Under the pieces are notes generated by a model. The model was given only the letters and a program-made list of their open reading frames with translations, had not been told where the DNA came from and made no database searches. From positions 1-25,740 of IMG/VR virus record IMGVR_UViG_3300023184_000470: a stretch of 25,740 nt of DNA. One strand, written 5' to 3'. The DNA is from a virus. This document shows, piece by piece, positions 13,628 to 14,758 of this stretch (position 1 is its first letter; every line of letters starts with the position of its first letter). Made by a program: the position numbers and the translations under genes.

Positions 13628-13810
13628 TTACTTAGGATTGTCAGTTTTGTAAAAACCAGTTCCTTTAAACTGAACACCTATTGATCCATAAACTTTATTC
13701 ATAGGGCATGCACATTTTTCACAAATTTCTGTGGAATCTGCTTCAGAAAATGATTTGTTTACTTCTTTATTGATGTCACAGGATATGCATGAATACTCGT
13801 AGATTGGCAT
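13628..13810 (-). CDS. FmdB-type zinc-ribbon protein
   Basis: The protein begins MPIYEYSCISC and continues to CEKCACPM, with the two CxxC knuckles (Cys8/Cys11 and Cys30/Cys33) and the GVQFKGTGFYKTD ending that define the FmdB / CxxC_CxxC_SSSS family of putative regulatory zinc ribbons. The length of 60 residues is normal. The ATG shares one base with the TAA of the nuclease gene (TAATG), so the two are co-translated. Biochemical role in the family is unclear. Confidence 0.85.
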   Translation of the reverse strand: MPIYEYSCISCDINKEVNKSFSEADSTEICEKCACPMNKVYGSIGVQFKGTGFYKTDNPK

Positions 13811-14214
13811 TATTTCTTCTTTGCTCTTTGTTTGGCTAGTGCTTCAAAGTCTTTAACCTTGGTCTCTCCCATATATCCCCAAGCATATCCATCTTCAATC
13901 ATCTGCTCATTAATAGATTTAGAAGATCCGTCAACATATAACCAGCCTAAAATTCTTCCATACTTTTCAGAACTATCTGGTTTTTGTGTTTTAATAATTA
14001 TATCTTTTGCTTCTTTAACTTTATACTTAATATACTCTTTTGCTTCAAGTCCCAAAGCTTTCTCAGCTTTATCTGTTGTTCTTGATTCTGGAGTATCTAT
14101 TCCTGCCAGCCTAACTCTTTGAGAATACGATATGCTAAATCCTAAATCAATATCCACATCTATGGTATCACCATCAACCACATTTGTTATTTTCTTTACA
14201 CGATATTCGTACAC
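13810..14214 (-). CDS. Staphylococcal-nuclease-like endonuclease, GTG start
   Basis: The 134-residue protein is a compact SNase (OB-fold) domain. With the GTG at 14214 as residue 1, the active-site residues fall at the same numbers as in staphylococcal nuclease: Asp21, Arg35, Asp40, Thr41, Glu43 (RLAGIDTPE) and Arg87 (KYGRILGW). It should be a Ca2+-dependent DNA/RNA nuclease, perhaps for host DNA breakdown. GGAGG lies five bases before the GTG. A longer ATG start at 14262 would run through the hairpin upstream and is rejected. No signal peptide is present, so it acts in the cytoplasm. It is followed by the FmdB-type ribbon with a TAATG overlap. Confidence 0.85.
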   Translation of the reverse strand: MYEYRVKKITNVVDGDTIDVDIDLGFSISYSQRVRLAGIDTPESRTTDKAEKALGLEAKEYIKYKVKEAKDIIIKTQKPDSSEKYGRILGWLYVDGSSKSINEQMIEDGYAWGYMGETKVKDFEALAKQRAKKK

Positions 14215-14227
14215 TATATCCTCCAAT

Positions 14228-14324
14228 AATAAGGGGCAGTTTAAAGACTTGCCCAGGTCCATCAGTTATTTAATGTCGCTGTCTCCCCCGACATATCTGC
14301 GACTCCCCAGTGACGGGGTGCAGA
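14228..14324 (-). ncRNA. Candidate structured RNA or 5' leader upstream of the nuclease
   Basis: Between the hsp20 stop and the nuclease GTG the minus strand holds a promoter and three hairpins. The first is nested, TCTGC/GCAGA outside CCCC/GGGG (14296-14324). The second is ATGTCG/CGACAT with a ten-base loop (14273-14294). The third is GGGCAAGT/ACTGCCC (14233-14254) followed by CTTATTATT, which resembles an intrinsic terminator. The transcript would be about 95-100 bases, or a leader that attenuates the nuclease gene. No known RNA family is recognised, and there is no tRNA pattern. Confidence 0.4.
14233..14254 (-). terminator. Terminator-like hairpin just before the nuclease gene
   Basis: A seven-pair stem with one bulged base and a six-base loop ends in CCCC followed by TTATTATT on the minus strand. 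It lies immediately upstream of the GGAGG ribosome binding site, so it could end a short RNA or attenuate the nuclease gene. Confidence 0.5.
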
Positions 14325-14329
14325 CTACT

Positions 14330-14359
14330 ATTATACTATTATTTGATTTTGATTGTCTT
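14330..14359 (-). promoter_or_regulatory. Promoter of the candidate RNA
   Basis: AAGACA (14354-14359) and a perfect TATAAT (14330-14335) are 18 bases apart on the minus strand. The -35 lies in the last codons of hsp20. The predicted start is at about 14323, at the foot of the first hairpin. Confidence 0.45.
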
Positions 14360-14758
14360 TGGCTTTTTATCTTCAGGCACAATTTTTTCAACTGTAACTG
14401 ATAACAAGCCGTTTTTTAATTCAGCACCAGTGACTTCCATATACTCACCAAGCGCAAATGTGCGGGTAAATTTACGAGCAGCAATTCCCTTATGAATTGC
14501 TTCACCAGAATCTTCTGCCGATACTTGACCCTTAATGACAAGGGTTCCGTTATCAATAGTTATATCAACATCCTTCTTGTCAAAACCAGCTAAAGCTAAA
14601 TCGACACGAAAAACATCATCTTTAACCTTTACAATATTGTAGGGCGGATATGATTGATGTGATGCTGTTGTATGTACTGTATTTAGGCGATCAAACATGT
14701 CGTTGAAGCCAATAAAAAATGGATCCTTAAAAAGATCCAGCGTAAAATGTGTTACCAT
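14339..14758 (-). CDS. Small heat-shock protein (Hsp20)
   Basis: The 139-residue protein has a short N-terminal arm (MVTHFTLDLFKDPFFIGFND) and an alpha-crystallin domain (about 40-135). Visible marks are YNIVKVKDDVFRVDLALAGF, the strand DITIDNGTLVIKGQ, and AELKNGLLSVTVEKIVPE with the GLL signature. It is an ATP-independent holdase that keeps unfolding proteins soluble; such genes are found in aquatic phages and may aid virion assembly. A strong AAAGGAGG ribosome binding site lies six bases before the ATG. A stable hairpin precedes the gene. Confidence 0.9.
   Translation of the reverse strand: MVTHFTLDLFKDPFFIGFNDMFDRLNTVHTTASHQSYPPYNIVKVKDDVFRVDLALAGFDKKDVDITIDNGTLVIKGQVSAEDSGEAIHKGIAARKFTRTFALGEYMEVTGAELKNGLLSVTVEKIVPEDKKPKTIKIK

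Follow-up and report, generated by a model that had tools for sequence, protein, structure and literature searches.

What is encoded between the hsp20 gene and a nuclease gene of this virus, and what would it do for the genes around it? The window, by which is meant the whole stretch of 25,740 bases that was analyzed, comes from a virus record whose genes lie chiefly on the minus strand. A first-pass annotation had placed between these two genes a possible new phage RNA or attenuator leader, composed of a promoter, three successive hairpins and a terminator-like hairpin with a T-rich tail. The feature is present on the minus strand, and Pfam confirms both of its neighbors, hsp20 (14339..14758, stop codon 14341-14339; PF00011, E 2.2e-18) and an SNase-family nuclease gene (13810..14214; PF00565, E 2.9e-18), homologues of which begin with M(Y/F)EY at the position matching the GTG start at 14214. 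The promoter had also been recognized correctly: a TATAAT -10 element lies right after the hsp20 stop codon (14330..14335, minus strand), with AAGACA 18 nt 5' of it, and predicts a leader RNA that starts at about 14323.

Downstream of this promoter, the layout is one of two hairpins and a pseudoknot, all on the minus strand. Two of the annotated hairpins are real, namely hairpin A (TCTGC A CCCC GTCACT GGGG AGTC GCAGA, 14296..14324), predicted to lie at or near the 5' end of the leader RNA, and hairpin C (ATGTCG GGGGAGACAG CGACAT, 14273..14294), which is seen in the window and in some relatives, but the 3' part had been misread. What had been taken for a terminator-like hairpin, GGGCA..TGCCC, is helix S2 (14254-14250 with 14238-14234) of an H-type pseudoknot (GGACCTGGGCAAGTCTTTAAACTGCCC, 14234..14260), interleaved with helix S1 (GGAC/GTCT, 14260-14257 with 14248-14245) and joined by the loops L1 (CT), L2 (A) and L3 (TTAAAC). 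Both comparative evidence and a match to model R1 (24.9 bits) identify this fold. The pseudoknot lies 78 nt past the hsp20 stop codon, with the promoter in between, and is followed by CTTATTATT, in which a T-rich terminator tail had been seen; in relatives this tail is of mixed A and T and leads into a Shine-Dalgarno sequence without a U-run. The Shine-Dalgarno sequence of the window is GGAGG (14220..14224), and 19 nt separate the end of the pseudoknot from the SNase start codon. The single-sequence folding energy of the leader was no better than that of shuffles (z = -0.58), a value that is uninformative on the pseudoknot because nested folding cannot model such structures; support for the predicted leader structure is comparative.

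Searching by the SNase protein, with no use of the motif, yielded 80 loci, about half of which carry the same leader 5' of the SNase gene. The leader cassette recurs across dozens of related phage contigs, standing 3' of hsp20 or other genes and 5' of SNase, a zinc-ribbon gene or others. Of 88 distinct hairpin A copies, 87 have TATAAT exactly at -17 relative to the core of the hairpin, and in 82 the pseudoknot, recognized by pattern, lies 3' of hairpin A. Hairpin A is near-invariant, with 98.6% of its cells paired in 54 aligned relatives; the alignment agrees with its pairing, but so little variation leaves covariation hardly anything to test. The middle of the leader is modular, with hairpin B, hairpin C, both or neither. 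Among the 70 SNase leaders compared, all have a Shine-Dalgarno-like sequence between the pseudoknot and the SNase start, and the spacing between these two is 18-21 nt in 69. In two relatives (L066, L067) the knot stands 8 nt past the hsp20 stop codon without TATAAT in between, and for this reason the promoter and hairpins were perhaps inserted between the hsp20 stop codon and an older 3' knot, a history that is plausible.

Whether the leader could instead be coding was considered as well. An in-frame ATG in the pseudoknot region of the window (14262-14212, minus strand) lengthens the SNase ORF to 150 aa. This longer ORF is not kept in relatives; the frame from the pseudoknot to the SNase start is open in the window, yet in only 25 of 70 relatives, so that the leader does not belong to an extended nuclease ORF, and the ATG is a trap for automatic gene callers. 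Rfam 15 contains no family that covers the pseudoknot or the leader at the gathering cut-off. The sole weak whole-leader match in the window, to EGFOA RNA (RF02955), was rejected at 13.9 bits (E 5.4) against a cut-off of 37.7, and other families likewise scored below their cut-offs. A resemblance of CCUGGGCA and GGGGAG to the ZTP riboswitch was considered and dropped, as it has no Rfam report and is absent from other family members. When the whole leader was compared with isolated phages by BLAST, only chance-level matches resulted, and the cassette itself is so far known from uncultured contigs only.

The pseudoknot belongs to a well-supported family with the consensus NNNC-CU-GAGCA-W-GNNN-nnAAAC-UGCUC, in which two interleaved helices both show compensatory changes. 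Statistics for S1 were drawn from 232 distinct 24-nt copies chosen without any S1 requirement. In these, pairs -1/+10 and -2/+11 are each formed in 98.3%, compared with 46% and 50% expected, and pair -3/+12 in 74%, compared with 41% expected; the two inner variable pairs show all four pair types, and the covariation score was 0.321 against 0.070 after shuffling (108 of the 232 copies). Among 59 distinct rows from a model search, in an alignment fitted to the model, 97.9% of S1 cells were paired. In S2, the SNase loci show the variants GAGCA/TGCTC, GAGTA/TGCTC, GGGCA/TGCCC, AGGCA/TGCCT and TGGTA/TACCA, the window pair GGGCA/TGCCC being itself a compensated variant, and at one locus an insertion (GAGCCA/TGGCTC) is present on both S2 strands. 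Because loci were fetched by pattern, the sets overlap partly, leaving the S1 statistics free of this bias and the S2 evidence only partly so, and sequences within one clade are related and hence not independent. A topology scan of 2.65 Mb of DNA found 236 copies, whereas three controls (a permuted loop motif in two, reversed sequence in the third) gave 1 apiece. The first-pass annotation had looked to compensatory changes in the stems for support, and such changes accompany the conserved pseudoknot stems in relatives. Its proposal of a new structured phage RNA thus stands, with a promoter, a conserved 5' hairpin and a conserved pseudoknot that match no Rfam family. No description of the pseudoknot was found in the openly licensed literature, where a published account may have been missed; the family is apparently undescribed, in the sense of "not found" rather than proven new.

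Pattern scans of viral contigs and GTDB genomes, the match counts of which are at-least values, placed the pseudoknot, among the matches listed, in phages and prophages of Actinobacteria, Cyanobacteria, Alphaproteobacteria and Firmicutes. Isolates that carry it include Roseobacter phage SIO1, Lentibacter phage ICBM2, Synechococcus phages S-EIVl and S-H35, Mycobacterium phage Labelle and a gut phage, and it is also found in phages and phage-like plasmids of Staphylococcus, Bacillus, Anoxybacillus, Lactobacillus, Arthrobacter and Rhizobium. Examples from Firmicutes, S. aureus phages included, have the knot between portal/minor-head and scaffold/major-capsid genes. Within one lactobacillus-type family, 20 of 151 genomes carry one or two copies each, as prophages would give. 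Part of the GTDB matches are due to chance or lie in coding regions, and several lack S1 complementarity. Copies also occur in tandem. At four loci, knot sequences lie between identical repeats in the manner of CRISPR spacers (L334 at 1786, L378 at 212, L420 with three matches, L436 at 930), which is what a common phage element would give. One viral contig with pseudoknot copies also bears a permuted tmRNA gene (L233, 11778-12019).

The position of these copies was described by the distance from the stop codon to the CC of the knot, with ORFs called mechanically and the longest ORF ending nearby taken as the upstream gene. In the viral set, no case was below 7 nt, while 24 stood at 8 nt and 17 at 9 nt; the bacterial set had 11 at each of these distances and three below 7 nt. 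With similar upstream proteins removed, 28 cases were found at 8 nt and 17 at 9 nt, followed by a decaying tail. The edge of S1 is thereby some 5-6 nt past the stop codon, which, judging from known footprints, would place it immediately beyond a ribosome whose A site holds the stop codon. The upstream proteins are unrelated, among them Hsp20, DUF932, ribonucleotide reductase, single-strand binding proteins, minor head proteins, DNA polymerase and ArdA, giving the family a REP-like location past the stop codons of unrelated genes that the window copy shares only loosely at its distance from hsp20. The next gene is co-oriented in 76 cases and opposite in 15, and since other gaps, used as a control, gave the same ratio (283 to 60), the knot belongs to the upstream gene. 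Eight loci in diverse bacterial contigs have a tiny conserved ORF of about 20 codons, for example MKRFMIPRTAHCDEGCRILS followed by its stop codon, which has an HCxxGC ending and overlaps the 5' half of the pseudoknot, with its UGA inside the knot. These loci differ from the rest of the family, because a translating ribosome would unwind the knot.

Several kinds of signal lie 3' of the knot. tRNAs within 200 nt were found downstream of 21 copies and upstream of 1. For 19 of the 21, the tRNA starts 5-15 nt past the knot; the cases are not all independent, since a single recurrent tRNA-Asp locus supplies many of them. U-runs follow 29 of 150 copies, compared with 2 in a control stretch, intrinsic terminators lie 3' of the knot in several bacterial contigs, and the first 7 nt past the knot are G-poor. 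In a contig binned as Polynucleobacter, two knots are each followed directly by a hammerhead ribozyme, and a pattern scan gave 10 further viral contigs with the knot 5' of a hammerhead-like sequence, most of them type III by eye. Two contigs each have one hammerhead that reaches the Rfam cut-off; two of the hammerhead-like sequences (L450, L457) are doubtful, and two others (L449, L456) are identical. The cut site of the type III ribozymes, as read from sequence, is 6 nt past the knot in one locus (L324) and up to about 20 nt past it elsewhere. Four pseudoknots occur in a single contig (L462, minus strand); hammerhead ribozymes come after two of them and other hairpin-like sequences after the remaining two.

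The best explanation, for and against which the probabilities seem evenly balanced, is that the window element is a promoter and structured 5' leader for the phage SNase gene and that the knot is a ribosome-abutting barrier at cistron ends, which blocks 3'-to-5' exoribonucleases. Such a function is suggested by position: the knot lies just outside the terminating ribosome, independently of the gene, and is often near signals that make 3' ends. Placed as near the ribosome as possible without being unwound, it would cap the mRNA 5' of it, as with REP elements. In the window, the knot would guard the end of the hsp20 mRNA or the promoter-proximal leader, while hairpin A would guard the leader 5' end. 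Decay of the SNase mRNA would then leave a stable RNA of about 90-100 nt, and a discrete leader RNA of this size may exist as a decay product whose 3' end lies at the pseudoknot. The window clade is not directly explained by a 3'-UTR role, because the knot there is far from the hsp20 stop codon and just upstream of the initiating ribosome, inside a promoter-driven leader. It also counts against a barrier that many copies have a co-oriented downstream gene and no visible 3'-end signal.

A further difficulty is the sequence of S2, L1 and the AAAC of L3, which is conserved well beyond what a mere barrier would seem to call for. Such conservation would suit a recognition site, bound by a host factor or phage protein (RNA polymerase, the ribosome, a nuclease or a translational repressor) and serving, for example, in antitermination or translation control, as would the tight spacing of knot and start codon in the window clade and the almost invariant hairpin A. 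However, loops as tight as those of a compact pseudoknot can restrict the sequence even if nothing binds to it, and across a family that spans phyla the partner would need to be conserved too. Moreover, it is stop codons rather than promoters that generally set the position of the knot, which also precedes intrinsic terminators. Recognition by a partner is considered rather unlikely on this balance.

Termination, in which transcription stops at the knot (by itself or together with a U-run) and SNase is made only after antitermination, is improbable. It draws on the excess of U-runs past the knot and on the tail of the window, but about four in five copies lack a U-run, the tail of the SNase leaders leads into a Shine-Dalgarno sequence, and tRNAs, ribozymes and structural genes that need transcription lie directly downstream. 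The window site was also absent from a mechanical terminator scan, and no GC-rich hairpin with an immediate U-run is conserved there in relatives. An attenuator that keeps a potentially toxic nuclease off, one possibility raised by the annotation, is not supported: there is no intrinsic terminator for it to act through, the cassette occurs before and after other genes, and the knot generally follows unrelated ones. Stimulation of read-through or frameshifting by the knot is very improbable. In its favor, the spacing resembles that of recoding pseudoknots, and spacings that would bring the UGA of CCUGAG into frame are the less common ones (21 of 97). Against it, no open, extended frame was found past the stop codon: with medians of 8, 10 and 11 codons, the frame past the knot does not exceed the other two in length. 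Of 97 stop codons, 51 have T as the next base and just 12 have C, and tRNAs, ribozymes and opposite-strand genes lie downstream.

A broader proposal can be made tentatively, with a probability somewhat short of even: one sequence-conserved knot may be a general 3'-end cap for phage mRNAs across phyla, paired with ribozymes, tRNA processing or U-runs and set at the edge of the terminating ribosome, as a bacterial counterpart of viral exonuclease-resistant RNA. If this reading holds, the small fold without an Rfam match would be among the most widely shared cis-acting phage RNA elements, including those in phages of S. aureus, lactobacilli, Synechococcus and mycobacteria. It would account for how phages set the stability of neighboring cistrons, such as those between portal and capsid genes, and would make sense of intergenic phage hammerhead ribozymes. 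The stop-codon spacing rule is a direct, testable prediction, and the knot could serve as a portable mRNA stabilizer.

DUF2800 RNA (RF02960) starts right past the knot in four Clostridia contigs, and a like sequence adjoins the 3' end of the knot in a gut phage. No pseudoknot is included in the DUF2800 model, and by pattern none was seen at more distant DUF2800 RNAs; the known motif could be just the 3' portion of something larger. The leader pseudoknot of phage T4 gene 32 is found at a single locus, where it is bound by gp32 for autoregulation; like it, the window knot is an H-type pseudoknot in a phage mRNA leader, 5' of a Shine-Dalgarno sequence. Unlike it, the family is multi-locus, gene-independent and mostly past stop codons, and the leader precedes SNase and other genes rather than a single-strand binding protein gene. 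Viral xrRNAs are also compact pseudoknotted RNAs, of a kind that viruses may use against exonucleases, but they have another fold and stop 5'-to-3' exonucleases of eukaryotes, whereas the putative activity of the knot is proposed to oppose 3'-to-5' enzymes. The REP elements of enterobacteria, which are intergenic, 3' untranslated and near stop codons, slow 3'-to-5' decay of upstream mRNA. The knot resembles them in these aspects of location, and its effect on decay is proposed by analogy only; REP elements are longer hairpins confined to some bacterial chromosomes, whereas the knot is a 24-nt pseudoknot found in phages and prophages across phyla.
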